DNA from: Methyloversatilis universalis EHg5
Lineage (GTDB): Bacteria; Pseudomonadota; Gammaproteobacteria; Burkholderiales; Rhodocyclaceae
Direction of reading: 5' to 3'
Assembly (NCBI RefSeq): GCF_000378945.1
Contig: NZ_KB900539.1
Location: forward strand, 3,422,122-3,486,121
Length of the DNA stretch: 64,000 bases
Below the pieces are notes generated by a model. The model worked only from the letters and a program-made list of their open reading frames with translations. It was not told the DNA's origin and searched no databases. A program made the translations under genes and the position numbers. This document shows, piece after piece, positions 5,885 through 57,226 of the stretch; position 1 is the first letter of the stretch, and each line of letters starts with the position of its first letter.

Positions 5885-5987
5885 GCGGCGCAGCCGCCTG
5901 CACGCTGGCACTCACTGCGGAGCATCGGACTCGTGGGAGCCGCGCCCCGCCGCGATGCAGCCGCCGCCCACCGCACTTGACCGCGGA

Positions 5988-31020: not shown

Positions 31021-32076
31021 TCAGGCGGCACGGGCCGGCGCGAAGCGCGCCACATACCAGTTCATCGCTTCCGCGAGCCCGCGCGACACATCATGCGTCG
31101 GCGCGTACCCCAGACGCGTCTGGGCGCGGGAAATATCGGCCAGCGAGTGGCGCACGTCGCCGGCCCTGAACTCGCGATACTGCGCCTGCGCGCCCGCGAT
31201 GTCCGGGAAACGTTTCACGAGTTCGTCGCGCATCGCTGCAAACAATTGATTCAGCGAGGTCTGGCGGTGGGCCGCGACGTTATAGACCGTGTTCACCGCC
31301 TCCGGGCTGTCGGTCAGGCCGGCCAGCAGATTGGCCTGTACCGCGTTGTCGACGTAGCAGAAGTCGCGGCTGGTTTCGCCGTCACCGTTGATCTGCACGG
31401 TGTCGCCCAGCAGCAGCGCGCGCGCCCAGCGCGGAATCACCGCGGCGTAGGCGCCTTCCGGGTCCTGCCGCGCGCCGAACACGTTGAAGTAGCGCAGGCC
31501 GACACAGGGCAGGCCGTAACAGCGGCCGAACACATCCGCGTACAGCTCGTTCACGTATTTGGTCACCGCATACGGCGACAGCGGCTTGCCGATCACGTCC
31601 TCAACCTTGGGCAGCGACGGCGAGTCACCGTAGGTCGAACTGGATGCGGCATAGACGAAGCGCGATACCTTGGCGTCGCGCGCCGCCACCAGCATGTTCA
31701 GGAAACCATTGACGTTGGAGTCGTGCGAGATGAGCGGATCGGCGATCGAGCGCGGCACCGAACCCAGCGCGGCCTGGTGCAGCACGACGTCGGTGCCGGC
31801 ACAGACCCGGGCACAGGTCGCCAGATCACGGATATCGCCTTCGACGAAGGTGAAGCGCGCTTCGGCTCCGGCCGGCAGACCGGCCATGACCTCGTCGAGA
31901 TTGCGCTGGTGGCCGGTCGAGAAATTGTCCAGCCCGGTCACCGTCTGGCCGGCGTGAAGCAGGGCCTCGACCAGATGGGAACCGATGAAACCGGCCGCGC
32001 CGGTCACCAGCCAGCGTCGCGGCGCGGCGGTCAGCGCGGCCTGCAGCGGCGCCGGAAGGGTGGTCGGAACGGTCAT
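31021..32076 (-). CDS. UDP-N-acetylglucosamine(uronate) 4-epimerase, TviC/WbpP type
   Basis: Extended short-chain dehydrogenase of 351 aa. NAD loop [16 protein letters not shown] is at residues 24-39, the catalytic set is Ser145-147 and Tyr169/Lys173 (PYAVTK), and [12 protein letters not shown] is characteristic of TviC/WbpP 4-epimerases acting on N-acetylated UDP-sugars. With the adjacent TviB-like dehydrogenase it would make UDP-GalNAcA from UDP-GlcNAcA. The ATG at 32076 lies eight bases after the TviB stop. Substrate preference is inferred. Confidence 0.85.
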
Positions 32077-32083
32077 GCCGGTC

Positions 32084-33364
32084 TCACAGACGCCATACGC
32101 TGACACCGTGCGCGGCCAGCGCATCGACGTCGAACTGGTACTTGATGTCGGCCACCACGCCGCCGTCCTTCAGCTTGGCCACGTAGTCGGTGACCGGGCG
32201 CGCCTTGAATTCGGCGTGCGAAACCGCGGCGACGATGGCATCCACCTTGGGCACGGCATCCCAGTCGACCAGCGACACGCCGTACTCGTGCTCGGCTTCG
32301 GCCGATTCGGCCACCGGGTCATGCACGATCACCTCGACGCCATAGCTCTGCAGTTCGCGGATCACGTCGATCACGCGCGAATTGCGCAGGTCGGGGCAGT
32401 TCTCCTTGAAGGTGAGGCCGAGTACCAGCGCCTTGGCGCCCTTCACCGACGCGCCGCTCTGGATCAGCTTCTTCACCGTCTGTTCGGCCACGTACTTGCC
32501 CATGCCGTCGTTGATGCGGCGGCCGGCCAGGATGACCTGCGGGTGATAGCCCAGCATGTCCGCCTTGTGCGTCAGGTAGTACGGGTCGACGCCGATGCAG
32601 TGACCGCCGACCAGACCCGGACGGAAGGGCAGGAAATTCCACTTGGTGCCGGCGGCCTTCAGCACTTCCTCGGTGTCGATACCGAGCTTGTTGAAGATGA
32701 TGGCCAGTTCGTTCACGAAGGCGATGTTCAGGTCGCGCTGCGTGTTCTCGATCACCTTGGCCGCTTCGGCCACCTTGATGCTGGACGCTTCATACACACC
32801 GGCCGTGATGACCGCCTTGTACAGGTCGGACACCTTCGTCAGCGTGTCCGGCGTATCGCCCGACACCACCTTCAGGATCTTGGTAACCGTGCGTTCCTTG
32901 TCGCCCGGGTTGATGCGCTCCGGCGAGTAGCCGACGTTGAAGTCCTGCTTCCACTTCAGGCCGGAGAACTTCTCGATCACCGGAATGCACACTTCTTCGG
33001 TCGCACCGGGATAGACGGTGGATTCGAACACCACGATCGCACCACGCTTCATGTGCCTGCCGCAGGTTTCCGAGGCGCCGACCAGCGGCGAGAAATCGGG
33101 CTGGTGCGCGTCATCGACCGGCGTGGGCACGGCCACGATGATGTAGTCCGCGTCCTTCAGCGCAGCGCCGTCAGTGGTGACCGTCAGCTGGCTGGCCGCC
33201 CGCAGGTCCTCGCTGCTCACCTCACCGGTCGGATCGACGAATTCGCGATAGGCCGCCACCTTGGCTTCAGACATGTCCACGCCGATGGTGGGCATCTTCT
33301 TTCCGAATTCGACAGCGAGAGGCAGGCCGACGTAGCCGAGGCCGATCACAGCAACTTTGGTCAT
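32084..33364 (-). CDS. tviB: UDP-N-acetyl-D-glucosamine 6-dehydrogenase, TviB/WbpO type
   Basis: NAD-dependent oxidation of the C6 hydroxyl of UDP-GlcNAc (or UDP-GalNAc) to the uronic acid. Rossmann motif [17 protein letters not shown] starts at residue 4; the catalytic Cys256 is in [15 protein letters not shown], and the UDP-binding C-terminal domain has [14 protein letters not shown]. The protein has 426 residues. The [12 protein letters not shown] segment fits the TviB/WbpO branch more than UDP-glucose dehydrogenase. It provides the acidic sugar for the polysaccharide encoded to the right. Confidence 0.88.
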
Positions 33365-36185: not shown

Positions 36186-37535
<1,350 letters not shown>

Positions 37536-37546
37536 GTCACTCCCGG

Positions 37547-39643
37547 TCAGGCGACGGCGGCCACCACAGCCGTCTGCTGAGGAAACACGAGCCGGAACAG
37601 GCTGCCCCGGCCCGGCTCGCTGGTTACTTCGATGCGTCCACCCAGATCCTGGATGTAGCGGAAACTTTCGTAGGCGCCGATGCCCATGCCGTTTGCCTTG
37701 GTCGACTGGAAGGGCTTGAACAGGCGCTCGCGCACGAACTCTTCGGTCATGCCGCAGCCGCTGTCCTCGACCTCGACCACGACGCCCGCAGCTTCGGTGC
37801 GCGCTCTGATGCTGACTTTACCGGTTTGCGGCGTGGCATCCAGTGCATTCTGCACAAGATGCCCCACAACCCTTTCTATCCGGTCTTCATGCGCCCGGAT
37901 GACCAGGCCGCCCTCCACCTCAAGGTCAACCGCGCAGGCGCTGCGCGCCCTCGCACGGTGCAGTCTTTCGAGCAGCGGCGTCAGCGCCACCGGAGCAGCC
38001 TGTTCGATCGGCTGGGTACCGGAACGCAGCTGCAGCAGCATGCTGTTCATGCGCCCCACCGCGTGTTCGATGGTTTCCAGCATGTCCTGCTGGAACTCCG
38101 GGTTGTCCTTGTGCTTCTGGGCGTTGCGCAACAGCAGCGTCAGCTGCGCGATCAGGTTCTTCAGATCGTGCACGACGAAGGCGCTCATCTTGGAGAAGGC
38201 CTCGAACTTCTTCGCCTCGATCAGCGCCTCCATCGCCTGGGTCTGGCCCAGCACGCCGGCCACCTGACGACCGGCGGTCTTGAGCAGGTCGCGCACCTCC
38301 CAGTTCAGATCCAGCAGCGCGCGCGGCCGGCACAGCACGACGAAGCCGAGCGGCATGTCCTCACTGCCCAGCGGGCAGATGAGCCAGGCTTCGGGAATGG
38401 CCGCCACCCATTCGGGCAGACGCATGTTTCCGTAAATGCCCGGCCGCGAGCGGTGCTCCTCGATATTGACCACCCACATGCGCCCCAGCAGCAGCGTCAC
38501 CAGCGGGCTGTCGGCCGGCTCACGCGCAACGATGTCGGGCACGTTCAGACGGGCGGCGGGCACGTAATCACCCTGTTCGTCACGCAGCCACAGCAGGCCA
38601 CCCGGGCTTTCGACCAGATCGGCCATCACCTGGATGGATGCCTCACGCAGCTTGTCCACGCTGGAGGCGCGGTACAGCGTATCGGCCAGTTTCAGCCATT
38701 CGGCACGGTAGTCGTAGCGCAGGCTGAAGAAATGCTTGTTGATGAACACCCGCAGCCAGGCACGCACGCTGCCCGAGGCGATCGAGGCCACCAGGCCCAG
38801 CGCCCCGGCCGCCAGCACCACGGTCTGCAGCGCCGCGCCCCATTCGCCGCCGAAGAAGCGCACGTAGTAACCGGCCAGCGCGATGATGAGCAGCGCCGCC
38901 CCGGCGATCACCAGCGCCGAGGTGTGGAACACCGCTTCGCGCGACACGTTGAGCCGGATCGACCACTCGCGCACCCGCGCCGACGAGGCTGCGAACAGTG
39001 GCAGCGCCAGCGCGTGCACGATGCCGCGCACCGCCCACACCGTGGCGTCGATCTCGCGGAACATCAGCGCTTCGGAGAAGTAGTACAGGTCGAACACCAG
39101 CGTGAAGGCCAGGCCGAGCGTCATCGGCTTGATGCCCCAGCGCCACTGCTGCGGCGTGTTCCGGTAGAACTGTTCGGTCATCACCGCGCCCAGCAGGCTG
39201 AGCGCCAGCCCGCTGCCCATCATGACCGACAGCACTGCGTGATCGCGCGACAGCAGGAAGGCCGCCCCGGCATAGAGCAGCGTACAGGGCAGAACCGCCA
39301 GCAGCACCAGACGCATCAGCCAGGACGGCCGGGCCACGAGACGGCGCAATGGCCGATGACCGTCGGGATCGACCACGCAGGCGGCAAGAAAACCCAGGAA
39401 GATCAGGTAGTGCAGCGCATCGGCGGCATGAGCCAGCATCCAGAATGCGGCATTCGGCAGCTTGACGAAGGCCGCCAGCGCCGCACACCAGACCGCACCG
39501 GCCGCCATGCAGCCCCCGAGCAGCCGCGCCCGCGGCGCATTGCCCGGTCCGAGCAGCAGCTGCAGAGACAGCGCAAGGAAACCCAGCGCGGCCACCAGGT
39601 AGGCATACAGCGCAAAGGCAGCGGGGAGCGAATCCATCGACAT
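37547..39643 (-). CDS. prsK: XrtA/PEP-CTERM system histidine kinase PrsK
   Basis: A 698-residue sensor kinase. The N-terminal ~290 residues contain about ten hydrophobic helices, then a GAF-like domain (about 310-460), a HisKA-like helix with the phosphorylated His492 (VVHDLKNL) and an HATPase domain with VQNALDATP and DSGCGM. The KxxL variant after the histidine is typical of PrsK. The signal it senses is unknown. It precedes prsR by 11 bases. Confidence 0.94.
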   Translation of the reverse strand: MSMDSLPAAFALYAYLVAALGFLALSLQLLLGPGNAPRARLLGGCMAAGAVWCAALAAFVKLPNAAFWMLAHAADALHYLIFLGFLAACVVDPDGHRPLRRLVARPSWLMRLVLLAVLPCTLLYAGAAFLLSRDHAVLSVMMGSGLALSLLGAVMTEQFYRNTPQQWRWGIKPMTLGLAFTLVFDLYYFSEALMFREIDATVWAVRGIVHALALPLFAASSARVREWSIRLNVSREAVFHTSALVIAGAALLIIALAGYYVRFFGGEWGAALQTVVLAAGALGLVASIASGSVRAWLRVFINKHFFSLRYDYRAEWLKLADTLYRASSVDKLREASIQVMADLVESPGGLLWLRDEQGDYVPAARLNVPDIVAREPADSPLVTLLLGRMWVVNIEEHRSRPGIYGNMRLPEWVAAIPEAWLICPLGSEDMPLGFVVLCRPRALLDLNWEVRDLLKTAGRQVAGVLGQTQAMEALIEAKKFEAFSKMSAFVVHDLKNLIAQLTLLLRNAQKHKDNPEFQQDMLETIEHAVGRMNSMLLQLRSGTQPIEQAAPVALTPLLERLHRARARSACAVDLEVEGGLVIRAHEDRIERVVGHLVQNALDATPQTGKVSIRARTEAAGVVVEVEDSGCGMTEEFVRERLFKPFQSTKANGMGIGAYESFRYIQDLGGRIEVTSEPGRGSLFRLVFPQQTAVVAAVA

Positions 39644-39723: not shown

Positions 39724-41112
39724 TCAGCGCGCGCCGTCTCCGGTCAGCACGACACGCACGGTCTGCAGCAGTACCAGGATGTCGAGGAAGAGGGTGTGGT
39801 TCTTCACGTAGTACAGGTCGTACTGCAGCTTCTGCACCGCGTCGTCCACCGACGCGCCGTAGCTGTAACGGACCTGGGCCCAGCCGGTGATGCCCGGCTT
39901 GACGCTGTGGCGAGCGGCGTAGAACGGAATCTGGTCGGTCAGCTGATCGACGAAGAAAGGACGTTCCGGACGCGGGCCGACGAAGCTCATGTCACCGTGC
40001 AGCACGTTGAAGATCTGCGGCAGTTCATCAATGCGGGTCTTGCGGATGAAGTGACCGACGCGGGTGATGCGGTCGTCGTTGCTGCCGGCCCAGCGCGGCT
40101 TGCCGTCAGCTTCGGCGTCCAGGCGCATGCTGCGGAACTTGAGCACCTTGAAGGTACGACCGCCCTGCCCCACCCGCTCCTGCCGGTAGATGACCGGGAA
40201 GCCGCTTTCGATCGCGATGGCCAGCGCGGCCAGCAGCATGATGGGCGCGGTCAGCACCAGCAGCACACTGGAGGCGACGATGTCGAACACCCGCTTGACC
40301 GCAGCCCGGGCGAAGCCCTGGCGGAAGCCGTCGCCGTAGATCAGCCAGCTGGCGCGCAGCGTATCCAGCCGCACCTGGCCGCGCATGCGTTCGAAGAAGC
40401 TGGACAGATCATTGACGGTCACGCCGGCCAGCTTGCAGTCCAGCAGTTCGCGCAGGGGCAGCACGCCACCACGGCGTTCGCGCACAGCAACCACAATTTC
40501 GTTGGCGCGGTGATCGCGGGCCAGCTGCATCACGCAACTGCCTTCGGGCATCACCATGGTCGAGGGCACTTCGACGCCATCTTCCGAGCCGACCGGCACG
40601 AAACCGACAATCGTGTGGGTGCTGCTGGCCGACGTAGACACCGCCGCCCACACCGAAGCCGCTTCCGAGCCGGTGCCAACCACCAGGATGCGGCGGGTGA
40701 ACATGCCGGCACCGTCCGCCTGCAGGAAGGAGGCGGCGCGCAGCAGCAGGATGCCGCCGAACCCCATGCACAGGGACACGTCCAGCGCCGGCATCGCCAC
40801 ACTGCCCTGCGGCAGCAGCCGGAACACCATGTACGCCACAGGCAGGCCGAGCAGGAACGCGAACAGCACGCGACCGACCAGTTCGGACAGATTGCGCGGC
40901 TGTTCCCGCTGATACAGGCCGAGGGCGCTCATCAGCAAGGTCATCAGGATGGCGAATACCGATGCCGGCAGCAGAGCGGGCAACAGCGTTTCAATGCTGG
41001 CCGGCGCGCTGATCCAGGCAGCGCCGAAACCGGCGATCAGCAGCACGATCGCTTCGGCAATCAATCTCATGAGCGTGACGGACGGTACGTAGTGACTGAA
41101 AAGTCTGACCAC
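39724..41112 (-). CDS. XrtA-system polyprenyl-phosphate glycosyl-1-phosphate transferase
   Basis: Initiating sugar transferase of exopolysaccharide synthesis in PEP-CTERM/XrtA loci (TIGR03013-type). Five N-terminal transmembrane helices, a central cytoplasmic nucleotide-binding-like region (RILVVGTGSEAASVWAA), one more helix, and the catalytic bacterial-transferase domain with KFRSMR, RKTRIDELPQIFNVL and GDMSFVGPRPERP. The GTG at 41112 with AAGGGG six bases upstream gives 462 aa beginning VRLFSHYVPS, as in the family. A sigma-54-like promoter lies 45 bases ahead. Confidence 0.92.
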   Translation of the reverse strand: MVRLFSHYVPSVTLMRLIAEAIVLLIAGFGAAWISAPASIETLLPALLPASVFAILMTLLMSALGLYQREQPRNLSELVGRVLFAFLLGLPVAYMVFRLLPQGSVAMPALDVSLCMGFGGILLLRAASFLQADGAGMFTRRILVVGTGSEAASVWAAVSTSASSTHTIVGFVPVGSEDGVEVPSTMVMPEGSCVMQLARDHRANEIVVAVRERRGGVLPLRELLDCKLAGVTVNDLSSFFERMRGQVRLDTLRASWLIYGDGFRQGFARAAVKRVFDIVASSVLLVLTAPIMLLAALAIAIESGFPVIYRQERVGQGGRTFKVLKFRSMRLDAEADGKPRWAGSNDDRITRVGHFIRKTRIDELPQIFNVLHGDMSFVGPRPERPFFVDQLTDQIPFYAARHSVKPGITGWAQVRYSYGASVDDAVQKLQYDLYYVKNHTLFLDILVLLQTVRVVLTGDGAR

Positions 41113-41154
41113 AATCAACCCCTTCTGGCGTCTGCGGCGTACAGGCAGCTCGCC

Positions 41155-41170
41155 GGCAATATTCTTTCCG
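41155..41170 (-). promoter_or_regulatory. Sigma-54-like -24/-12 promoter
   Basis: On the minus strand CGGAAAG-AATA-TTGCC aligns with TGGCACR-N4-TTGCW: GG and GC are exactly ten bases apart and TTGC is perfect; 8 of the 12 defined positions match. A start about 12 bases downstream (near 41144) would leave a 32-base leader to the GTG at 41112. The nearby PrsR is a sigma-54 activator, which supports it. The rest of the 235-base gap (41113-41347) shows nothing else recognisable. Confidence 0.5.
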
Positions 41171-41347
41171 GCACGGTGCGGCCGGCTTGTTGAGGGCGAA
41201 AGATATGGGCAGCGCCCGCCGGAACGCGTGAATCCGGTCACGAGAGGGCGCCGCACACGTGGCCAGTGATAACTAACGCACGTTGCGACGCCGTTTCAGG
41301 GCAGGCTGGCCCCGGTGACGACACAAATTTCCACATTGAAACCCGGG

Positions 41348-42517: not shown

Positions 42518-42696
42518 CCGGTCCATCCTCCGGGAGCGGACTTTCGCACAGCCTGCCTGCGGGCGGAACCGCAGTATCGCGGCCTTCGTGACGCGCACCA
42601 CTCGCACCGCCACGCAACCCGGGCATGCTGTCGGCCGCGCCGGCCTCCGCACCGGCAGAGACCAACCATCGCCAGCGCCGCCCGCCACAGGACACG

Positions 42697-45600
42697 ATGC
42701 ACCCCGAACCGAATCGTCACCCCCTGCTGCTGCTCACCGCCTATGTGGCGCTGATCCTGTACGGAAGCCTGTTTCCGTTCAGCGGCTGGCACAGCGGCGT
42801 GGATACCTGGGCCTTCCTTGAACCGGGCATCGCCCACCGCCCGCTGTCGCTGCCCGATCTGGTGGTGAACGCCCTCATCTACATCCCGATCGGTGTCCTC
42901 ATCCGGCTGGCGATGGCGCGGCGCAGTCTGGCGACCGCGGCCATTGCCGCAACCGTGCTCGGCGGACTGCTGAGCCTGACGGTTGAAACCGCCCAGGCCC
43001 ACCTGCCGCAGCGGGTGCCGGCGCTGTCCGATCTGCTGCTCAATACCGCCGGTGCGCTGGCCGGTGCGCTGCTGGCCGGTCTGCTGGCGCCGGACGGCCG
43101 CCTGGCCGGCCGCTTCGGCGCGTGGCGGCAACAGCACCTGCAACCGGGACCGGAAGCCAATATCGCACTGCTGGCCACCGGTCTGTGGGCGCTGGCCCAG
43201 CTTGCACCCTTCGTACCGTCGCTGGACATCGGCCTGCTGCGCAGCGGGCTCAAGCCGCTGGCTCAGGTGCTGGACGACCCGTCCCGCTTCGAACCGGTGC
43301 GGGCACTCACCTATGCACTTGAAATCGCCGCGCTGGCACTGTTGATACGCGACGCGCGGCAGCGTCCGGCCTCGGTCACGCGTGCGCTGTGGGCATTCTT
43401 CTTCGCCGTGCTGATCGGCAAGGCCTTCGTGGTCAGCCGCCAGGTATCGGCCGAAGCGCTGATCGGCGCACTCGCCGGTCTGACGCTGGCACTTGGCTCG
43501 CCGCGCGCGCTAAAACCGCGGCGGCCGGCTCTGGCCGCGCTGATGCTGGCGCTGGCGCTCACCGTGGGCGAACTGGCCCCGGAGCCGGGGCCACTGCGCG
43601 TGCTGAACACGGTGCCCTTCCTGGCGCACATGAGCAATCCGATGCAGGGCCTGAGCGTGCTGCTGGACAGCGCCTGGCCCTATCTGGCGCTCGCACTGGC
43701 GCTGTACCGTTGTTCGTCGCGCAGCCGCATCGCCAGCGGCGTCATCGTCGCCGGCTGCGGCGGCCTCGCCTTTGCGCTCGAATGGCTGCAGCAGTACGTG
43801 CCCGGACGCACGCCCGACCTCACCACGGCGGTCATCGCGCTTACCGCCGCGGCGCTGACGGTCGGACAGCTGCCCCGGCGCAGCAGCGCCCCCGGCCCTG
43901 GCGGGCTGGCCGGCACCTTTGCTGCGGTATGCGTGTTCAGTGCAGTGGCCGGCCTGTGGTCGATCACGCGCACGCCGCCGGCAGTGGCAGCCACTTCAGC
44001 CAGCAAGGCCATGCTGCCGGAACCGGCCGAACTGAGGATGCCGGACCTGCCCGGCTTCCGTACCGCCCACCCGCGCCTGCCGCATCCGGATGCCGGCGAA
44101 CGCGCCCGGATCGCGCAGGAAAATCCGGAATACATCAATCAGCTGCTGACCCGCGCCCGCGGCGGGCAGGGCGACCTGGCGGCCGCGATCGAAGCGGAAT
44201 TCCTGCGCCCGGGCAGCCAGGACATGCGGGCGCTGACCGAAAGGCTGATCCGCCTGAAGCCGAGCTGGCGCGGCCACGAACAGACCAAGCCGATCGCCCA
44301 GGCCTACGACTGGCTGCACGGCCGCATTCCGCCCGACCTGATGCCCGCCCTCAGGGACAAGGTGATCGAGGCCTGCGAGTACCAGATCAGTGTCATCCGC
44401 ACCGAGCGGCTGTCGCCCTACAACGTCTATCTGTACAACTCGCCGCTGCAGGCGCTGATGGCGTGCGCGCTGGCGGTCTATCGCGATGATCCGCGCGCTG
44501 AGCCGGTCATGGCCTTCACCCACGACTACTGGCTGAACCGCGTGCTGCCGGTCTGGCGGCAGATCGGCGGGCGCAACGGCGGCTGGCACGAGGGCGGCGA
44601 ATACGTGGGCATCGGCATCGGCCAGGCGATCTACCAGCTGCCGGCGATGTGGCGCGCCGCCACCGGCGACGACCTGTTCGCCCGCGAGCCGGCGATCCAC
44701 GGCTTCCTGACCTTCCTGATCCACCGCGCACTGCCCGACGGCACCATACAGCGCTGGGGCGACGTCGCCTTTCCGCGTCGCAGGGTGGATGACGCGCTGG
44801 CGCTGGCGCTCGAATTCCGCGACCGCCCGGCCTATTCCATGCTCGGTTCGCCGAAGGCGAGGCTGGCGCCGACCTCCTGGCCCTGGGGACCGCTGCCCGA
44901 CGCGACGCTGTACTCCGAGCCGGAGCAGCTGGCCGATCGCCCGCTCATCCACTTCGCCGACGGTCTGGGACTGGTGACCGCGCGCAGCGGCTGGGACCGC
45001 AACGCAACCATCGTGAGCTTCAAGGCCGGCGACAACTACTGGTCGCACAGCCATCTCGACCAGGGTGCCTTCACGCTCTACACCGGCGTGCCGCTGGCGC
45101 TGGACAGCGGCTGCTACTGCGGCGGCTATGGCAGCGACCACTACCTGAACTATTACTACCAGACCATCGCGCACAACACGGTCACCGTAACCGATCCGGC
45201 CGACAACGCCCCCAAGCCGGCGCGCAAGGACAAGGAACCGCGCCCGATCGCGAACGACGGCGGTCAGCGGCGGGTCGGCTCGGGCTGGGACCTGCATGCC
45301 GCACCGCTGGACCTGGACGACTGGCGGCGCCAGTACGACGACTTCCATACCGGCCGGCTGCACACGCTGTTCGATGAAGAAGGCCTGCTGGTCGCGCTGG
45401 CCGACATCACGCCGGCCTATACCAACAGCCAGAGCGGTCCGGACAGCTTCCATCACCGCACGCGGCGGGTCGAGAAGGCGTGGCGGGTGTTTGTCTACGA
45501 CCGCCGGAGCGGCACCATCGTGGTGTATGACGACATCGAGGCCGCGCGGCCGGATCTGGCCAAGCGCTGGCTGCTGCACGGTACGCTGGCGCCCGCGGTC

Positions 45601-46125
45601 AGCGGCAACCGTTTCGTGTTCGAACGCCCGCTGGGCGGCAACCAGGCCGGCACTGCCAAGCTCGAAGGCACGGTGCTGTTCCCGTCCGACGCGCGGCTGA
45701 CGCCGATCGGTGGCCGCGGCTTCGAGTTCTTCGCCGACGGACAGAACTACGACGAGAACGGCGCCATCTGGGGTGAAATATCCCGCCATGCCGCCGATTT
45801 CGAAGCCGGTGCCTGGCGCATCGAAGTGTCGCCAGCGCTGGAATCGCGCCAGGACCGTTTCCTGGTCGTGATGCACACCGGCACTGACGCCGCCGTTGCA
45901 CCACAGAAGATCGAACGGCTGACGCCGGGCGATGGCCGCATCGGCGCCCGGATAGAAGCCGGCGGCCGCACACTGGAATTGCTGTTCCAGCCGGACCGGC
46001 TGGGGGTCGACCTCACGCTGCGCGACCCGTCCCGGCCCGAACTGCGTCGCAGCCTGGAAGCCAGAGCGGCGCGTGCGCCGGCACGCAGCTGGATGCAGAC
46101 GCTGCGCGAATGGATGCATCCCTGA
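42697..46125 (+). CDS. VanZ-VanZ-heparinase II/III fusion protein
   Basis: A 1142-residue membrane protein. Residues about 10-130 (LYGSLFPFSGW, VNALIYIPIGVLI, VETAQAHLPQR, SDLLLNTAGALAGALL) form a VanZ-like unit; after further helices a second VanZ-like half (ALEWLQQYVPGRTPDLTT, about 360-380) follows. From about 450 the protein is soluble: a helical toroid region (GGWHEGGEYVGIG near 628) and a heparinase II/III domain with SHSHLDQGAF (His784, His786) and AHNTV (His826). This predicts a membrane-tethered uronate-polysaccharide lyase. The start follows AGGAC. It is translationally coupled to the SGNH gene. Substrate is unknown. Confidence 0.85.
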   Translation: MHPEPNRHPLLLLTAYVALILYGSLFPFSGWHSGVDTWAFLEPGIAHRPLSLPDLVVNALIYIPIGVLIRLAMARRSLATAAIAATVLGGLLSLTVETAQAHLPQRVPALSDLLLNTAGALAGALLAGLLAPDGRLAGRFGAWRQQHLQPGPEANIALLATGLWALAQLAPFVPSLDIGLLRSGLKPLAQVLDDPSRFEPVRALTYALEIAALALLIRDARQRPASVTRALWAFFFAVLIGKAFVVSRQVSAEALIGALAGLTLALGSPRALKPRRPALAALMLALALTVGELAPEPGPLRVLNTVPFLAHMSNPMQGLSVLLDSAWPYLALALALYRCSSRSRIASGVIVAGCGGLAFALEWLQQYVPGRTPDLTTAVIALTAAALTVGQLPRRSSAPGPGGLAGTFAAVCVFSAVAGLWSITRTPPAVAATSASKAMLPEPAELRMPDLPGFRTAHPRLPHPDAGERARIAQENPEYINQLLTRARGGQGDLAAAIEAEFLRPGSQDMRALTERLIRLKPSWRGHEQTKPIAQAYDWLHGRIPPDLMPALRDKVIEACEYQISVIRTERLSPYNVYLYNSPLQALMACALAVYRDDPRAEPVMAFTHDYWLNRVLPVWRQIGGRNGGWHEGGEYVGIGIGQAIYQLPAMWRAATGDDLFAREPAIHGFLTFLIHRALPDGTIQRWGDVAFPRRRVDDALALALEFRDRPAYSMLGSPKARLAPTSWPWGPLPDATLYSEPEQLADRPLIHFADGLGLVTARSGWDRNATIVSFKAGDNYWSHSHLDQGAFTLYTGVPLALDSGCYCGGYGSDHYLNYYYQTIAHNTVTVTDPADNAPKPARKDKEPRPIANDGGQRRVGSGWDLHAAPLDLDDWRRQYDDFHTGRLHTLFDEEGLLVALADITPAYTNSQSGPDSFHHRTRRVEKAWRVFVYDRRSGTIVVYDDIEAARPDLAKRWLLHGTLAPAVSGNRFVFERPLGGNQAGTAKLEGTVLFPSDARLTPIGGRGFEFFADGQNYDENGAIWGEISRHAADFEAGAWRIEVSPALESRQDRFLVVMHTGTDAAVAPQKIERLTPGDGRIGARIEAGGRTLELLFQPDRLGVDLTLRDPSRPELRRSLEARAARAPARSWMQTLREWMHP

Positions 46126-47114
46126 TGCGCGCCCTGGTCCGCCACATCGGACCGGCTGCGGCCTGGGCACTGGTACTGCTGCTCGGCTTCGAAGCCGCGC
46201 TGCACTGCGACGCCTGGCTCTACCGTTACCGCTCGGTATTCGCGGCCGGCCGGGCAGAAGACAAGATGCGGCACGCCGCCAACCGGCAGCCGGCCACGCT
46301 GTTCATCGGCAACAGCCGCACCGACAACGGCCTGTCTCCGATCGCTTTCCGCGCCGGCGCTGGCCTGCCCGACGATGCCGCCGTATTCAACCTGGGCCTG
46401 CCCGGGGCCAACACGCTGGTGCTGCGCGGCGTCGTGGAGCGACTGCTGGGACGCGGCATGAAGCCGCCGGCCGACGTATTCATCGCGCTCGACGAAACGC
46501 TGTTTCAGGACGAAGACTCGCTCGGCTACTACGGTTTCTTCGCGCGGCGCACCGACCTCTGGGACGACCGGCTGCACGCAGCGCTGTTCGGCTCCTGGCT
46601 GCGCAGCTGGTATTACAGCGGCAATCTGCGCCAGCTGCGCGAACCGGACAAGCTCGGGCGCTTTGTCCAAGCCACCTTCAGCGAAGTTGAACCGGTGGGC
46701 GGCAGTGCCGCCCACACCGCCGGCTACCGCAAGGGGCGCAGCGGCGGTTTCCAGTCCGCCGAACAGCTGCGCGCACAGGAAGGGGCCACGCACGCACCGC
46801 CCGATCCGCGCATGACCCGCCATCTGCTCGATCTGGTCGAGCGACTGGCCGGCGCCGGCAGCCGGGTGCACCTGATCGCGGTGCCGATGTTCGAGCGCGC
46901 GTCCGCCTTCGGGCCGGACGTGGCGGCCGGCCCCTACGCCGACATCGTGCCGGCGCTGCAGGCACGCGGTGCCCGCTGGCTGGAAACGCCGCTGTCGCGG
47001 GCGCTGGAGGCTGGCGACTTCGCCGATCCGGGCCACCTCAACGACCACGGCGCCCGCGTCTTCAGCAGTTCGCTGGGACAGGCCTACGCACGCACACGAG
47101 CCGCCCGGCCATGA
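46125..47114 (+). CDS. SGNH/GDSL-like membrane-anchored protein (DltD/AlgX-like)
   Basis: A 329-residue protein with one N-terminal transmembrane helix and an SGNH-hydrolase fold: nucleophile Ser64 in FIGNSRTDNG and the C-terminal Asp301/His304 in DPGHLNDHG. Such proteins pair with MBOAT acyltransferases and transfer acyl groups in the periplasm. Here the MBOAT gene follows with a four-base overlap, which strongly supports an O-acetylation pair. I start at 46125, overlapping the previous stop by one base; an in-frame ATG at 46110 is possible. Confidence 0.82.
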   Translation: MRALVRHIGPAAAWALVLLLGFEAALHCDAWLYRYRSVFAAGRAEDKMRHAANRQPATLFIGNSRTDNGLSPIAFRAGAGLPDDAAVFNLGLPGANTLVLRGVVERLLGRGMKPPADVFIALDETLFQDEDSLGYYGFFARRTDLWDDRLHAALFGSWLRSWYYSGNLRQLREPDKLGRFVQATFSEVEPVGGSAAHTAGYRKGRSGGFQSAEQLRAQEGATHAPPDPRMTRHLLDLVERLAGAGSRVHLIAVPMFERASAFGPDVAAGPYADIVPALQARGARWLETPLSRALEAGDFADPGHLNDHGARVFSSSLGQAYARTRAARP

Positions 47115-48538
47115 TATTCAGCCAGCCTGTCTTCTTCGTCTTCCTGGCAGTACTGCTGCTGCTCTACAGCCTGTGCCGCTCGCAAAGCGAGCGTGCCGCC
47201 ACGCTGCTGGCCGGCAGCCTGCTGTTCTATGCATCGTGGAAGCCGGCCTACCTCATCCTGCTGGTGCTGTCGGTCAGTGCGAACTACCTGTTCTACAGCG
47301 CACTGTCGCGCACCCGCAGCCGCCGGACGCTGGTGGTCGCGCTGACACTGAACCTCGCCCTGCTGGGCGTGATCAAGTATCTGGGCATGCTGCTGGACAC
47401 CGCGATCGCCGCCGCCGGACTGGCCGGTGCGGACATGAGCGGCATCGACACCCGCTGGACGCACTGGGCGCTGCCGCTCGGCATCAGCTTCTACACCTTC
47501 CACATGCTGTCGGTGATGATCGACGTCTATCGCGGCGAATGGACCACCCGCATCAGCTTCCGCGCCTGGTGGCTGTATGTGAGCTTCTTCCCGCACATGG
47601 TGGCCGGCCCCATCCTGCGCGCGTCCGAACTGGTCGAACAGCTGGAGCGCCTGCAACCTCTGCAGGCGCGCGACCTCAAGCTGGGTGCCCTCATCTTCAT
47701 GGGTGGCCTGATCAAGAAAGTGCTGTTTGCCGACAATCTGGCAGGCGTGGCGGACGATCTGCTCGCCCACCCCGAGCGGCTGGACAGCGCGACCGCCTGG
47801 CTGGGCGTGACCGCCTTCTCGCTGCAGATCTATTTCGACTTTTCCGGCTACAGCGAAATGGCGATCGGTCTGGCGCGGGTGTTCGGCATCACGCTGCCAC
47901 GCAACTTCCTCTATCCGTATGTGAGCCGCAATCCGCAGGAATTCTGGCAGCGCTGGCACATCACGCTGTCACGCTGGCTGCGCGACTACCTCTATGTGTC
48001 GCTGGGCGGCAACCGCGCAGGCCACGCACGCACGCTGGTCAATCTGATGATCACCATGGTGCTGGGCGGTCTGTGGCACGGCGCGGCCTGGACCTTCGTC
48101 ATCTGGGGCGCGCTGCACGGCAGCTGGCTGGTGCTGCACCGGCTGCTCAGACCCTGGCTGCCGGCGCCCGGCGCAGCGCTGCCGGCGGCGCTCTACGCCG
48201 CACTCAGCTGGGCGGTCAGCATGATCATCGTATGGGTCACCTGGGTGTTCTTCCGCGCACCGGACCTGGACGCGGCGCTGACGCTGTGCAGTCGCCTGTT
48301 CGGCCTGTCGGCGGCGACCGGCCCGGCACCGGCGGTGCGCAGCTTCGTCTGGAGCCTGACCGCGCTGTCGATGGTGCTGGTGCTGCTGGAACCGCGCCTG
48401 GTCGGCTTCGCCGCCCGCAGCACCGAGCGCTGGTCACGTACGCCGGCACTGCTGCGCGGCTCAGTCTACGCCGCCTGCGTGCTGGCGCTGGTGGTGTTCG
48501 GCGGCAGCACGCAGCGCTTCATCTACTTCGATTTCTGA
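47111..48538 (+). CDS. MBOAT-family O-acyltransferase (AlgI-like)
   Basis: A 475-residue polytopic inner-membrane protein of the membrane-bound O-acyltransferase family. Family signs are FYTFHMLSVMIDVYRGE, the RWHITLSRWLRDYLY segment and the invariant His323 in LGGLWHGAAW. It should pass acetyl groups across the membrane to the SGNH partner for polysaccharide O-acetylation, as in alginate AlgI/AlgX systems. The 3' end converges on a TPR gene with nine bases between. Confidence 0.93.
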   Translation: MIFSQPVFFVFLAVLLLLYSLCRSQSERAATLLAGSLLFYASWKPAYLILLVLSVSANYLFYSALSRTRSRRTLVVALTLNLALLGVIKYLGMLLDTAIAAAGLAGADMSGIDTRWTHWALPLGISFYTFHMLSVMIDVYRGEWTTRISFRAWWLYVSFFPHMVAGPILRASELVEQLERLQPLQARDLKLGALIFMGGLIKKVLFADNLAGVADDLLAHPERLDSATAWLGVTAFSLQIYFDFSGYSEMAIGLARVFGITLPRNFLYPYVSRNPQEFWQRWHITLSRWLRDYLYVSLGGNRAGHARTLVNLMITMVLGGLWHGAAWTFVIWGALHGSWLVLHRLLRPWLPAPGAALPAALYAALSWAVSMIIVWVTWVFFRAPDLDAALTLCSRLFGLSAATGPAPAVRSFVWSLTALSMVLVLLEPRLVGFAARSTERWSRTPALLRGSVYAACVLALVVFGGSTQRFIYFDF

Positions 48539-48547
48539 GCCACGGGC

Positions 48548-49138
48548 TCAGCCTGCGCTGACGCCCAGCTCTTTCAGCCGCAGCAGTATCTTCTTCTGGT
48601 CGCCCAGCTTCTCCCTGGCGTCCTGCAGCACCTTGATCGCGTCCTGCTTGCGACCCTTCGCGACGTGCACGTCACTGAGGAAGGCCCAGGCATCGACCAG
48701 ATTGGGATCGATCTCGAGCGCAGCTTCGAAACGCTCCCGCGCATCGTCCGGCTGGTCGGCGAGCACGAAACCGCGCCCCTGGGTCACCAGCGCCTCGGCG
48801 CGCAACGGGCTTTCTTCCGGCGCGTGCTCAAGAAAGTAGGCGGTTTCGGACACCGTCGCGTTGGCGAAGAAACGCCGGCGGTTCTTGTCGGTGTAATTGG
48901 CGTAGGCCAGCGCGACCGCCTTCATTCCGAAACAGTAGTGGTGCACGTGCAGGAAGGACGCCGCGCCGATCTTCTTCTCCCAGACCGGGATCATGAGCTT
49001 GCTCTTGTTGTCGAGCCGGGCACGGCAATACTGCGGATACATCGCGAAATCACTGTCTTTCCAGGTCGTCGCCTCACCGGCCCACACGCCCCCGGACACC
49101 AGGCACGCGGCCAGCAAGGTCTTCCAGCGTACACCCAT
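48548..49138 (-). CDS. Exported tetratricopeptide-repeat protein
   Basis: A 196-residue exported protein: signal peptide ending near GGVWA, an N-terminal region with two cysteines (YPQYCRARL and HVHHYCFGM) not found in simple TPR proteins, then TPR units (DARERFEAALEIDPNLVDAW, DVHVAKGRKQDAIKVL). The ATG at 49138 has GGAGG eight bases upstream. It is opposite in strand to the surrounding polysaccharide genes. No function can be assigned. Confidence 0.75.
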   Translation of the reverse strand: MGVRWKTLLAACLVSGGVWAGEATTWKDSDFAMYPQYCRARLDNKSKLMIPVWEKKIGAASFLHVHHYCFGMKAVALAYANYTDKNRRRFFANATVSETAYFLEHAPEESPLRAEALVTQGRGFVLADQPDDARERFEAALEIDPNLVDAWAFLSDVHVAKGRKQDAIKVLQDAREKLGDQKKILLRLKELGVSAG

Positions 49139-49272
49139 CGTCTCACCCTCCAATGCTCTGAAACCGTTCCTGCGGCATCATACCGCCCGCCCCTCACCCC
49201 TCCCGTGACCCGTGCAACGGACAGACCGAGCGGGCTCGGCTACTGTCGGCAGGCTATGGACACCCCCACCTC

Positions 49273-50748
49273 ATGAGCTCGGCCCAGTCTTTCCGCTCCA
49301 GTGTGCGCTGGCTCTTCGTCGGAAGCACCGGCAATCAGATCCTTGGCTTCCTGTTCGGCATCGTTCTGACGCGCCTGCTGGCGCCGGAGCATTTCGGCGT
49401 ACTGCTCACCACCCAGGTATTCACCGGTTTCGCCGGTTTCCTCGCCGGCGGCGGCATGGGGCAGGCGCTGATCCGCTCCAAGGAAGCCACGCCGGACGAC
49501 TACCGCAGCGTGTTCACGCTGCAGCTGGCGATCGGTACCGCGATCTATGCCTTCTTCTTCGTGCTCGCGCCGGCCTTTTCGGTCTGGTACGAAAACCCGA
49601 TCTATACCGACCTGCTCCGGGTGTCGGCCCTGTCCTTCATCATCCGGCCCTTCGTTAACCTGCCCACCACGCTGCTCCACCGCGGCATGAAGTTCAACAC
49701 CATCGCGCTGTTCAACCTCGGCATCCTGGTGGTCACCAACGTGCTGAGCGTGGTCATGGCCTTCGGCGGCATGGGAGTGTGGGCGCTGGTACTGGGCGGC
49801 CTGATCGGCTCGCTGGTGTCGGTGGTGGTGCTGCAGGTGATCACCGGCTGGCGGCCCGGCTTCACGCGCGACTTCAGCCGCGCCAAGCATCTGGCGCAGT
49901 ACGGCGCGCTCACCTCGGCCACCGACATCATCTTCTACCTGCGGCAGCAGGCCAGTACCGCCATCCTGTCCTCCACGCTGGGTGCCGCCGCCGTCGGCCT
50001 CTACAACAAGGGCGAAAGCCTGGCCAAGATGCCGCACGGCTTCGTGACCGGATCGGTCTATCACGTGCTGTTCCGGGCCATTGCGGCGGAACAGGACAAT
50101 CTGGACCGCTGCCGCTACCTGCTGTTCCGCAGCATCGGCCTGCTGGCGGTCTATCTGACCCCGCTCTACATCCTGCTGTTCTGGGTGTCCGATCCGCTGG
50201 TCGCCTTCGTCTATGGCGAGAAGTGGCTGGAATCGGCGCAGGTGATCGCCATCATCTGTCTGGCCTGGCCGGCGCTGCTGATCGACAACATGGCCGGTGC
50301 GGTGCTGGGCGCACAGAACTGGCTGCATTACGAACTGCCGGTACAGATCGGTGCCCTGGCGCTGACCGCGCTGGCGGTCTATGTCGGTCAGCATTACGGC
50401 ATCGAGGGCGTGGCTGCCGCCATCGTGCTGGTGTTCTACCTGAGCAGCATCGTCATGTTCTGGCTGGCCGCGAAATGCCTGCGCGCGCGGATGCATGAAC
50501 TGGTGCGCGCACTGCGCCCGGCGCTGCTGCTGAACCTTCCTCTGCTGGCCGCCAGCGGCGGTCTGTACCGGGTGCTGCTCGGGCCGGACGGGCGGCTGGA
50601 CCTGACCGGCGCCATCGTGCTGACCGGCTTGTCCGGTCTGGCCTACGGGCTGGCCTTCCTGTTCGCACCGATCGAATCGCTGGCCACCGAACAGGCCCGC
50701 TATCGCGGCCTGATCACCGCCCTGATCCGGAGAATGCGCGGTGCTTGA
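49273..50748 (+). CDS. Lipopolysaccharide/exopolysaccharide flippase (MOP superfamily, Wzx-like)
   Basis: A 491-residue polytopic membrane protein with about 12-14 helices. The opening (WLFVGSTGNQILGFLFGIVLTRLLAPEHFG) is typical of the polysaccharide synthase/WzxC branch. It should flip the lipid-linked repeat unit assembled by the glycosyltransferases that follow. The 3' end overlaps the deacetylase gene by eight bases. Confidence 0.9.
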   Translation: MSSAQSFRSSVRWLFVGSTGNQILGFLFGIVLTRLLAPEHFGVLLTTQVFTGFAGFLAGGGMGQALIRSKEATPDDYRSVFTLQLAIGTAIYAFFFVLAPAFSVWYENPIYTDLLRVSALSFIIRPFVNLPTTLLHRGMKFNTIALFNLGILVVTNVLSVVMAFGGMGVWALVLGGLIGSLVSVVVLQVITGWRPGFTRDFSRAKHLAQYGALTSATDIIFYLRQQASTAILSSTLGAAAVGLYNKGESLAKMPHGFVTGSVYHVLFRAIAAEQDNLDRCRYLLFRSIGLLAVYLTPLYILLFWVSDPLVAFVYGEKWLESAQVIAIICLAWPALLIDNMAGAVLGAQNWLHYELPVQIGALALTALAVYVGQHYGIEGVAAAIVLVFYLSSIVMFWLAAKCLRARMHELVRALRPALLLNLPLLAASGGLYRVLLGPDGRLDLTGAIVLTGLSGLAYGLAFLFAPIESLATEQARYRGLITALIRRMRGA

Positions 50749-51538
50749 TCCGATTGCCAGCACGCTGGCCCGCAAGTCAGCGGGCCACGGCCCGCTGATG
50801 CTGATGTACCACTCGGTGACCGCAGACGGGCAGCCGGACTGGCCATGGGCGGTTTCGCTCGAACGTTTCGGTCAGCAGCTCGATCTGCTGTCCTCGCTCG
50901 GCTATCGCACCGCCACCATGGGCGACATTGCCAGCGGCAGGGTGTCCGCCTCGGACGGTCCGGTCGCAGTGATCACTTTCGACGACGGCTACGAGGACAA
51001 TCTGCTGGCCGTCGAGGCGCTGCAGCGCCGCGCCATGACCGCCACCTGGTTCATCGTCAGCGGCGCCATCGGCGGCGAACCGGACTGGCCCTACGACGGC
51101 CGCCCGGCCGGGCGCATGATGGACGCGGCCGCACTGCGCGACCTGCGTGCCGCCGGCATCGAGATGGGTTCGCACACGGTGTCGCACTGCCGGCTCACCC
51201 AGGCGTCCGACGCCGATCTGACACGTGAACTGGCGGATTCGAAAGCCGTGCTGGAAGACGTGCTGGGCGACGAAGTCAGCAGCTTCGCCTACCCCTACGG
51301 CGACTGGGACGCGCGCTGCGCCGGCGCGGTCGAGGCCGCGGGCTACCGCCAGGCCTGCACCACCCGCACCGGCTGGGCACTGCGCGACGGCAATCCCTAC
51401 ACGCTGCGCCGGCTGACCGTGTTCAATCACGACACCGCGTCCACGCTGTGCCGCAAGCTGGTGCTGGCCAGCAACGACGGCAGCCTGGGCGCGCTGGCGC
51501 GCTACATGGTCCAGCAACTGCGGTCCAGGCTGGCCTGA
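50741..51538 (+). CDS. Polysaccharide deacetylase (NodB domain)
   Basis: A 265-residue carbohydrate esterase family 4 protein: LMYHSVT, the metal/catalytic Asp pair in TFDDGYEDN (81-82), HTVSH with zinc ligands His145 and His149, and AYPYGDWD. It would remove acetyl groups from N-acetylated sugars. No signal peptide is visible, so a cytoplasmic step on the lipid-linked sugar is possible. It starts with GTG inside the end of the flippase gene. Confidence 0.88.
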   Translation: MLDPIASTLARKSAGHGPLMLMYHSVTADGQPDWPWAVSLERFGQQLDLLSSLGYRTATMGDIASGRVSASDGPVAVITFDDGYEDNLLAVEALQRRAMTATWFIVSGAIGGEPDWPYDGRPAGRMMDAAALRDLRAAGIEMGSHTVSHCRLTQASDADLTRELADSKAVLEDVLGDEVSSFAYPYGDWDARCAGAVEAAGYRQACTTRTGWALRDGNPYTLRRLTVFNHDTASTLCRKLVLASNDGSLGALARYMVQQLRSRLA

Positions 51539-54528: not shown

Positions 54529-55479
54529 ATGCTGAGCAAACTCGCCAAACTGCGTGACCGCGAAATCGTCATCAAGAACCTGGTCGAACTGAAGCGCGAC
54601 GCGCGCGGGCTGTGGTGGGACCTCACCCGCCCTGCCGCGAAGCCACCGGTGTTCCTGGTCGGCTGTTCGCGTTCCGGTACCACGGTCACCTTCGAAACCA
54701 TCGGCGCCTCGACCGAACTGGTCAATCTCGGTTTCGAGATCCCGCAGTTCTGGAACGATCTGTACGGCCCGCTGAACAACGGCTGGCATTCGGAAGCCGC
54801 CGGCGCCGAACACGCGCGGCCGGAACACCGCGACGCCGCGCTGCGCTTCTTCTACCGCCGGCTGGGCGGCGGCCGCATCCTGGACAAGACCTGCATCAAC
54901 GTGATGCGCATCGGCTATCTGCACGCGCTGTTCCCGGAAGCGAAATTCGTGTTCATCCAGCGCGACGGCCGCGACAACATCAGTTCGATGATCGACGGCT
55001 GGCGGCTGGGCCGCACCGACGGCGACTTCCACCTGTCGCAGTTCCTCGGCCAGTTCCCGGAGCCGGTGGCGATCAATCATGGTGAGTACACCGACTGGGC
55101 CTTCTTCCTGGCGCCCGGCTGGCAGGCCTACAACCACGCGCCGATCGAGGAGGTATGCGCCTTCCAGTGGATCAGCGCCAATCAGCTCGCGCTCGATGCC
55201 GCGGCGGCGCTGCCGGCCGACCGCTGGATACACCTGCGTTACGAAGATCTGTTCGAACGCCCGGTCGACATGTTCCGCGACGTCTATGCACGGCTTGATC
55301 TCGAATTCACCGCTGACATCGAACAGCGCTGTCGCACGCTGGACCAGCGCCCGACCAGCATCGTGAAGGGCAAGCCGGCCAAGGCGAAATGGAAGCAGCA
55401 GAACCCGGAGCTGATCGAACGCATCCTCGACCGCATCGCGCCGATGCAGGCGCGGCTCGGCTACGACAACCGGTCATGA
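54529..55479 (+). CDS. Sulfotransferase family protein
   Basis: A 316-residue PAPS-dependent sulfotransferase. The 5'-phosphosulfate loop is FLVGCSRSGTT (residues 42-52) and the 3'-phosphate site is FIQRDGRDNISSM. Position among glycosyltransferases suggests sulfation of a sugar in the repeat unit. PAPS-forming genes are not in the window. The stop overlaps the next transferase start by four bases. Confidence 0.87.
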   Translation: MLSKLAKLRDREIVIKNLVELKRDARGLWWDLTRPAAKPPVFLVGCSRSGTTVTFETIGASTELVNLGFEIPQFWNDLYGPLNNGWHSEAAGAEHARPEHRDAALRFFYRRLGGGRILDKTCINVMRIGYLHALFPEAKFVFIQRDGRDNISSMIDGWRLGRTDGDFHLSQFLGQFPEPVAINHGEYTDWAFFLAPGWQAYNHAPIEEVCAFQWISANQLALDAAAALPADRWIHLRYEDLFERPVDMFRDVYARLDLEFTADIEQRCRTLDQRPTSIVKGKPAKAKWKQQNPELIERILDRIAPMQARLGYDNRS

Positions 55480-56377: not shown

Positions 56378-57226
56378 ATGCTGAGCGTCGTCATTCCGGC
56401 TCACGACGCGGCGCGCTGGATAGGCGACGCGCTCGCCAGCGTGCGCGCGCAGCCGGTGCATCTGCCGGTCGAGGTGGTGGTCGTGACCGATCGCTGCCGC
56501 GACGACACCGCGGCCATCGCCCGCGCCGCCGGCGCCCGCGTGATCGACAGCCCGGCGTCGGGTGCGGCGGCCGCGCGCAACGCCGGTGTCGATGCCAGCC
56601 ACGGCGCCTTCATCGCCTTTCTCGACGCCGACGACCTGTGGCCTGCCGACAGCCTGGGCGGCCGCCTGGCGCTGCTGGAATCGGTGCCGGAGGCCGCGCT
56701 GGTGTTTGGCGACTGCCGGCAGTTCGACGACGATGGTCTTGGTGAGCACCGGCCGCACCGGCACACGCTGTTCGAAAGTGGCGGACTGGACGCCGGCTTC
56801 TTCGGCCATCCGCAGCGGGTGACCGATCCGCTGACGCGGCTGCTCGATGCCGGCTTCATCACCACCGGCAGCGTCATCATGCGGCGCGAAGCCTTTCTCG
56901 CGCTGGGCGGCTTCGATCCGTCACTCGCGCTGGTCGAGGACCTGGATCTGTGGCTGCGCGCGGCCCTGCGCCACACCGTGCTGTGGCATCCCGCGCTTGC
57001 GCTGCTGCGTCGCCGTCATGGCGCCAATCTGTCGCGTAACGCGGGCGCGATGGCGCGCGCGCACATCGCGGTACTCGAAGGCCTGGCCCGCCAGCCGGAT
57101 GCCGCCGCTCACCGCGCACGCATCGCCGCGCTGCGCAACCGGGCGCTGCGCGGACTTGCGCGGCAGGAAGCGGCGGCCCACCCGCTGCAGGCGCTCGGCC
57201 ACCTGCTGCAGTCCCTGCGGTCATGA
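56378..57226 (+). CDS. Family 2 glycosyltransferase
   Basis: A 282-residue GT2: LSVVIPAHDAARWIGDAL, VTDRCRDDT, GAAAARNAGVDASHG, FLDADDLW and VEDLDLWLRAAL. The stop overlaps the following asparagine-synthase-like gene by four bases. It resembles the preceding gene. Confidence 0.9.
   Translation: MLSVVIPAHDAARWIGDALASVRAQPVHLPVEVVVVTDRCRDDTAAIARAAGARVIDSPASGAAAARNAGVDASHGAFIAFLDADDLWPADSLGGRLALLESVPEAALVFGDCRQFDDDGLGEHRPHRHTLFESGGLDAGFFGHPQRVTDPLTRLLDAGFITTGSVIMRREAFLALGGFDPSLALVEDLDLWLRAALRHTVLWHPALALLRRRHGANLSRNAGAMARAHIAVLEGLARQPDAAAHRARIAALRNRALRGLARQEAAAHPLQALGHLLQSLRS

Follow-up and report, generated by a model that had tools for sequence, protein, structure and literature searches.

What does a polysaccharide lyase do in the same polypeptide as a VanZ membrane module? 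The question was raised by a gene in a 64,000-nucleotide stretch of Methyloversatilis universalis EHg5 (contig NZ_KB900539.1, positions 3,422,122 to 3,486,121 of the forward strand), which is called the window here and to which all coordinates refer. The gene encodes a fusion of VanZ with a heparinase II/III domain and, judged from its neighbours, is within an XrtA/PEP-CTERM, Wzx-type exopolysaccharide cluster. The product is proposed to be a lyase facing the periplasm that removes or trims the acidic glycan of the cluster, while VanZ unit 1 acts on the lipid-linked end of the glycan. The chances that this account is right or wrong were considered about equal.

The positions of the gene, its parts and its neighbours are given in Table 1. 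An alternative in-frame ATG is present upstream at 42625; with the start at 42697, alignment to the relatives at loci L003, L004 and L007 begins at the first residue. The Pfam scan matched VanZ at residues 48–129 (58.1 bits, cut-off 30.1), Hepar_II_III_C at residues 758–834 (38.0 bits, cut-off 24.0) and DUF4962 at residues 583–688 (29.9 bits, barely above the cut-off of 28.7). All three were above cut-off in 5/5 further family members scanned. The motifs SHSHLDQ and AHNTV were located in the lyase domain at residues 783–789 and 825–829. The AlphaFold2 model, built from a 44-row alignment, had a mean predicted local distance difference test (pLDDT) of 86.2 and a predicted template modelling score (pTM) of 0.77. 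Conservation by block (48 rows, duplicates included) was 0.30–0.79 in the lyase and 0.29–0.49 in the membrane part to residue 450, with a peak at lyase residues 601–650 (mean 0.79). A preliminary description of this DNA had reported a single frame of 1142 residues joining VanZ to heparinase II/III, with these two motifs, and had made its reading depend on the N-terminal part matching VanZ. The frame, the Pfam and PDB matches and the relatives all agreed with it.

The number of such fusions, which the preliminary description had proposed to count, was obtained by a pattern scan of 84,980 genomes, one per species. Relatives were encoded at 43 loci in other genomes, most near full length. Therefore, the fusion is neither a product of chance nor an assembly joint. 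Since the scan used short exact patterns from the fusion protein, 43 loci is a lower bound. The carriers were Methyloversatilis, Thiobacillus, Thauera, Aromatoleum, Thiohalobacter, Methylothermaceae and other gamma- and betaproteobacterial metagenome-assembled genomes. Alignment A1 (44 rows) consisted of the window protein and 43 of the 53 fusion loci; four identical copies (L044, L046, L047, L051) and six partial or frame-broken copies (L021, L023, L027, L039, L042, L053) were left out. Near-identical rows (L005/L048/L049 and L003/L004) and some partial rows were retained, so a residue count in A1 does not equal a number of independent events.

The fusion was present in 6/6 sampled genomes of the genus, the window's own genome counted, and the copy in genome G118 (L046) was identical to the one in Methyloversatilis thermotolerans (L007). 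Among 199 genomes of the window's family, some match was found in 184 and a fusion-type match in 10, one of which (G103) has the lyase part only, at a contig end. The other family matches listed covered about residues 5–340, mostly in frames of 350–450. In the samples of the order (300 genomes) and the phylum (299 genomes), which are thin and give lower bounds on spread, close similarity was found in the window's own genome only. At 1e-10 the phylum sample yielded five further genomes with seven loci, and no frame at these seven loci matched the VanZ module. A lyase-domain relative from another family of the order (L088:208-2742, a frame of 845 residues) is predicted to have a single membrane helix and does not match VanZ. 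Plasmid-borne spread was rejected, as residues 400–1142 had no match in the plasmid collection at 1e-20.

A tree to residue 290 was built from 43 fusions, after removal of one row because of gaps, together with 21 stand-alone VanZ relatives. The two groups separated with a support of 0.91 or 0.99, depending on rooting. The tree fits one fusion event, with a stand-alone set drawn from one bacterial family. A second VanZ relative of the window's genome (L115, about 5153–6694, minus strand) adjoins a frame that resembles an alpha/beta hydrolase by eye, like the betaproteobacterial operon described in PMC12419801.

The lyase part has a predicted helical region (about residues 466–716) and a predicted beta region (about 751–1122), and this helical toroid with a beta-sandwich is the heparinase II/III fold. 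The nearest solved relative by sequence and fold was heparinase II of Pedobacter heparinus (PL21, 2fuq), with E 3.2e-42 for the single sequence and 1.3e-62 for the 44-row profile in the PDB search. The same structure was the top Foldseek match (E 3.5e-24, TMt 0.68), followed by alginate lyases and exo-heparinases. The positions of heparinase II Tyr257 and His406 are kept in the fusion as Y636 and H784, each in 43/44 rows of A1, and so are the aligned HxH, D and AHN positions; H786, D803 and H826 were found in 44/44 rows. The complete heparinase II/III domain of the preliminary description is thus a heparinase-II-type domain with a conserved Tyr/His pair. The fusion differs from heparinase II in having Y575 and Y578 in place of His202 and Glu205, as counted by hand beside a two-residue gap, and in falling far below the NCBIfam HepB equivalog cut-off (156.7 bits against 600). 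Heparinase II itself is soluble and has no VanZ part.

The roles of heparinase II Y257 and H406 are given in the catalytic table of PMC12088678, and according to the same table several lyases of this fold use an Asn neutraliser with Tyr and His. Y575 was found in 44/44 and N576 in 43/44 rows of A1. By its conserved residues, the lyase family looks like the Asn-neutraliser set rather than heparinase II proper, and N576, by its alignment position, is the probable carboxylate neutraliser. An iduronate-type substrate was discounted, since Tyr occupies the His202 position.

VanZ proteins are widespread and their reaction is unsettled. In the fusion protein, 13 family-averaged hydropathy peaks precede residue 425, in agreement with the AlphaFold2 helices, and group as three sets of four transmembrane (TM) helices plus one. 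Units 1 and 3 are homologous (hhalign probability 97.7, E 1.4e-12), while the middle stretch is weakly similar to units 1 and 3 (E 5e-4 and 3e-3). Within the window protein the Pfam VanZ model matched unit 1 only, and a PDB search with residues 1–400 as one query gave nothing significant (best E 0.12). Two VanZ units had been described; the homology of units 1 and 3 supports this count, with the reservation that unit 3 is degenerate and that the stretch between them is itself weakly similar.

In unit 1, D54, N58, E97, Q100, P104, R106 and D112 are invariant in the A1 rows that cover them. With gaps set aside, N58 was found in 41/41 rows, E97 and Q100 in 42/42, and D112 in 43/43; these four were also found in 21/21 stand-alone VanZ relatives. 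Mapped by motif, the residues of the VanZ-1 lipocone proteins (PMC12419801) are present in unit 1: the helix-2 Asn, the helix-3 ExxQ and the helix-4 Asp. In the helix-4 DxDDxxxN motif, D112 and N116 are present and the two earlier Asp are replaced (A109, S111); of the 43 A1 rows with a residue at 116, 37 have N and 6 have E. In unit 3, ExxQ and the Asp are mostly kept (E362 39/44, Q365 37/44, D374 43/44), but the helix-2 position (residue 324) is variable and the Asn is not kept. PMC12419801 also reports that VanZ-1 is duplicated in betaproteobacteria, the second copy being inactive, and the degenerate C-terminal copy here is a further likeness. The difference is the fusion to a polysaccharide-lyase domain.

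Lys plus Arg made up about 0.21 per residue in the even loops and about 0.08 in the odd loops between helices, by a charge count rather than a dedicated topology program. Because positive charges favour the even loops and there are 13 helices, the N-terminus is predicted inside and the lyase outside, on the periplasmic side of the inner membrane. D54, N58, E97, Q100 and D112 of unit 1 lie in or beside odd loops, which is the predicted outer side and the same side as the lyase. The VanZ-1 active site is accordingly predicted to face outwards here.

A protein in which VanZ merely tethers a periplasmic lyase, working on chain length or clearing, with no VanZ chemistry, would account for the degenerate unit 3 and the barely VanZ-like middle stretch, and the lyase relative with a single membrane helix (L088) points the same way. 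However, the mapped active-site residues of unit 1 are kept, as in the stand-alone relatives compared, and 13 helices would be an expensive anchor. An inert anchor was therefore considered doubtful. Since unit 1 keeps these residues, the VanZ part probably does more than tether the lyase, and from the earlier wording of a membrane-tethered lyase the predicted membrane module stands and the simple tether probably does not.

According to the proposal in PMC12419801, VanZ-1 works on the head groups of lipid-linked exopolysaccharide in the outer leaflet. With this proposal and a lyase predicted to face that same side, the fusion is most simply explained as an enzyme for salvage or clearing. The fusion would be an inner-membrane protein whose lyase domain, in the periplasm, cuts a uronate-containing glycan exported by the XrtA/Wzx-type cluster. 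The glycan units would be flipped and then polymerised at the outer leaflet. Stalled or over-accumulated polymer would be cut by beta-elimination through Y636 and H784, with N576 as the probable carboxylate neutraliser. VanZ unit 1, opening on the same side, would bind the glycan at its polyprenyl-phosphate end and probably cleave or transfer that end; the carrier lipid would thereby be recovered along with the glycan. The clearing role of AlgL in alginate synthesis, described in PMC8829089, is a precedent. A more specific form of the proposal, in which unit 1 cuts the polyprenyl-phosphate link and the lyase cuts the chain, returning the carrier and relieving periplasmic build-up, is put forward tentatively and is more probably wrong than right. 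We infer the substrate, the VanZ chemistry and the preference for clearing over length control. The preliminary description had placed the lyase at the membrane, acting on the polymer of the cluster; the predicted orientation and the uronate-sugar and Wzx genes agree with this, and the substrate is still putative.

The context of the fusion at other loci was consistent with a role in exopolysaccharide metabolism. A context hit was defined as a protein with at least 100 bits to one of 17 exopolysaccharide genes of the window. Among the loci outside the genus (L008–L043), such a gene was found in the flanks of 18/36 (Fisher p 0.011 against random stretches). Among those with full flanks it was found in 12/13, compared with 3/20 random 20-kb stretches (p 1.4e-5). 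The control is imperfect, as the 20 stretches were taken at set coordinates from one bacterial family, and the loci span 23 kb and many families.

Several points weigh against the proposed function. Only half of all the loci outside the genus were positive, many of them lying on short contigs, and L013 has full flanks and no exopolysaccharide gene. Five of the 12 full-flank positives (L008, L014, L016, L019, L031) depend on a single truncated EpsB2-like frame where the locus ends, and L015 is positive by a single weak match of 113 bits. The AlphaFold2 model is weak at residues 783–785 and 811–823, near the active site. His202 and Glu205 of heparinase II are replaced by tyrosines. The gene is patchy, as the family, order and phylum samples showed, so most XrtA clusters would manage without it. 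The VanZ chemistry is itself an untested prediction.

The lyase might instead act last, releasing completed chains from the carrier or fixing their length, with no part in clearing. The Wzx-type cluster and the XrtA chain-length and tyrosine-kinase genes just past the window favour this, as does the suggestion in PMC12419801 that VanZ may take part in terminal chain release. The absence of the gene from most sampled genomes argues against it, and length control or release was considered unlikely. A polymer-level C5-uronate epimerase, which would shape rather than cut the glycan, is a serious rival, though considered somewhat less likely still. Dermatan sulfate epimerase acts during polymer synthesis, and the fusion gene is surrounded by genes for synthesis and for modification, the latter encoding an acyltransferase, a sulfotransferase and a deacetylase. 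The overall fold of human dermatan sulfate epimerase 1 (6hzn) is similar, with a lower-ranked Foldseek match (E 4.3e-14, TMt 0.57), but heparinase II is nearer by both fold and sequence. The epimerase was not among the 8 PDB profile matches at 1e-5, nor among the 18 single-sequence matches at E 1. A lyase for nutrition or for foreign glycans is very improbable. Characterised heparinases are mostly degradative, but the predicted inner-membrane anchoring and the biosynthetic context do not suit such a role.

For the clearing or trimming function proposed here, AlgL is the closest functional comparison. The algL gene is followed by algI and algJ, which may be compared with the DltD-like and MBOAT genes after the fusion, and AlgL is soluble and has no VanZ fusion. 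Like the fusion, AlgL, a periplasmic alginate lyase of Pseudomonas, is encoded with genes for acidic exopolysaccharide synthesis; its fold is an alpha/alpha toroid (PMC8829089), whereas the fusion adds a beta part and the 13-helix membrane module. AlgL (PL5) was not found among the PDB matches at 1e-5 or the best 50 Foldseek rows.

Table 1. Fusion gene, its parts and neighbouring genes in the window (residue numbers refer to the fusion protein).
Feature	Position	Strand	Basis or remark
VanZ-heparinase fusion gene	42697..46125	+	Open frame, 1142 residues
VanZ unit 1 (residues 1-140, TM1-4 predicted)	42697..43116	+	Pfam VanZ, hydropathy, AlphaFold2 helices
Middle four-helix stretch (residues 141-275), weakly VanZ-like	43117..43521	+	hhalign
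Degenerate VanZ unit 3 (residues 276-400)	43522..43896	+	hhalign to unit 1, residue counts
TM13 (residues 404-423), links VanZ module to lyase	43906..43965	+	Hydropathy, AlphaFold2
Lyase part (residues 441-1142)	44017..46122	+	AlphaFold2, Foldseek
Y575 and N576 codons	44419..44424	+	At place of heparinase II His202; alignment read by hand
Y636 codon	44602..44604	+	Aligned with heparinase II Tyr257
H784 codon	45046..45048	+	Aligned with heparinase II His406
DltD-like SGNH-type protein	46125..47114	+	GNSR and DPGHLN motifs; first ATG of frame 46110
MBOAT O-acyltransferase	47111..48538	+	Pfam MBOAT 106 bits; overlaps DltD-like gene at 47111-47114
Wzx-type flippase	49273..50748	+	Pfam Polysacc_synt_3, 225 bits
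Polysaccharide deacetylase	50741..51538	+	Pfam 83 bits
Sulfotransferase, Sulfotransfer_3	54529..55479	+	Pfam; kept in 5/5 other genus genomes
Asparagine-synthase-type amidotransferase 1	57223..58884	+	Profile matches
Asparagine-synthase-type amidotransferase 2	60199..62067	+	Profile matches
XrtA-system sugar transferase EpsB2	39724..41256	-	TIGR03013 540 bits, cut-off 393
XrtA-system histidine kinase PrsK	37547..39643	-	Above cut-off
XrtA-system response regulator	36186..37535	-	Above cut-off
PrsT	33386-36160		Label from context only; protein sequence outside the scans
TviC-like epimerase and TviB-like nucleoside-diphosphate (NDP)-sugar dehydrogenase	31021..33364	-	Below equivalog cut-offs

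The second ATG of the DltD-like gene overlaps the fusion stop (TGATG, 46123–46127). Its product had a mean pLDDT of 73.1 and DltD (6pfx) as best Foldseek match (E 8.6e-4); the Pfam scan gave no match. The MBOAT protein scored 163.5 bits against the DltB model, under the cut-off of 375. The pair was absent in L002 and L007 (2/7 of loci L001–L007), and in L075 (the genome of L007) and L079 (2/5 of the other genus regions). Since some genus loci are without it, the pair is optional.

The cluster contains several glycosyltransferase genes. The TviB/TviC-like pair scored 437.7 of 760 bits for TviC and 517 of 592 bits for TviB; the TviB-like protein reached 398.6 bits for NDP-sugDHase, above the cut-off of 189.8. 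By these profiles the pair is a candidate for the supply of N-acetylglucosaminuronic or N-acetylgalactosaminuronic acid (GlcNAcA/GalNAcA). Exosortase A, FemAB, the tyrosine kinase and the outer-membrane genes of the XrtA system lie just beyond the window end, all above cut-offs, along with a partial chain-length determinant that scored 227.9 of 278.85 bits. The two amidotransferases are diverged and additional to the standard XrtA one in L085, and are possibly uronamide-forming. A protein of 446 residues (41348–42688, minus strand) had no Pfam or NCBIfam match at 0.01; it adjoins the fusion in L001–L005 and L007 and is near it in L015. A small tetratricopeptide-repeat (TPR) protein gene by the flippase (48548–49153, minus strand, opposite to it) is kept in 5/5 other genus regions.

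The sulfotransferase suggests, from gene content, a sulfated exopolysaccharide in Methyloversatilis, and sulfation is likely a property of the window's cluster only. A neighbour similar to the Pfam-Sulfatase protein of L022 (L022:15939-18119) was found at six loci (L011, L017, L022, L026, L028, L040). The [CST]xPxR motif was present in none of the six, the L011 frame reaching the end of its contig; these proteins are therefore probably not genuine sulfatases and are perhaps transferases of the LtaS/EptA kind. In the Thauera and Aromatoleum loci, an SLC13-type transporter was nearby in five, and CysN/APS (adenosine 5'-phosphosulfate) kinase was clear in one (L035). One sulfotransferase-like match (162 bits) also occurred in a random control stretch (L114). 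A sulfated polymer for the whole family was rejected, as these neighbours probably lack sulfatase function.

The VanZ-heparinase pairing had not been recognised as described, and no paper on it was found in an open-access literature search, which covered mostly titles and abstract openings, supplements excluded. A search for PEP-CTERM with heparinase also returned no paper, and neither "heparin" nor "lyase" occurs in the main text of PMC12419801. The floc papers on Thauera MZ1T and Aquincola were considered for a link, which was dropped because a term search of their main texts gave neither heparinase nor VanZ. Neither half is new in kind; what appears to be new is their architecture, which is conserved across genera.

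A VanZ-lyase fusion in an exopolysaccharide cluster, with both halves on the same predicted side, fits the lipocone proposal (PMC12419801) from an independent direction. It also offers one protein in which the VanZ and lyase halves can be separately disabled. If unit 1 does cut the lipid link and the lyase the sugar chain, the fusion would provide a concrete partner reaction for the VanZ family. If the clearing function is true, it would be a Wzx-type, PEP-CTERM parallel to AlgL in alginate, relevant to floc and biofilm formers. The recurrence of the pairing in related bacteria suggests built-in clearing or trimming of polymer at the membrane.

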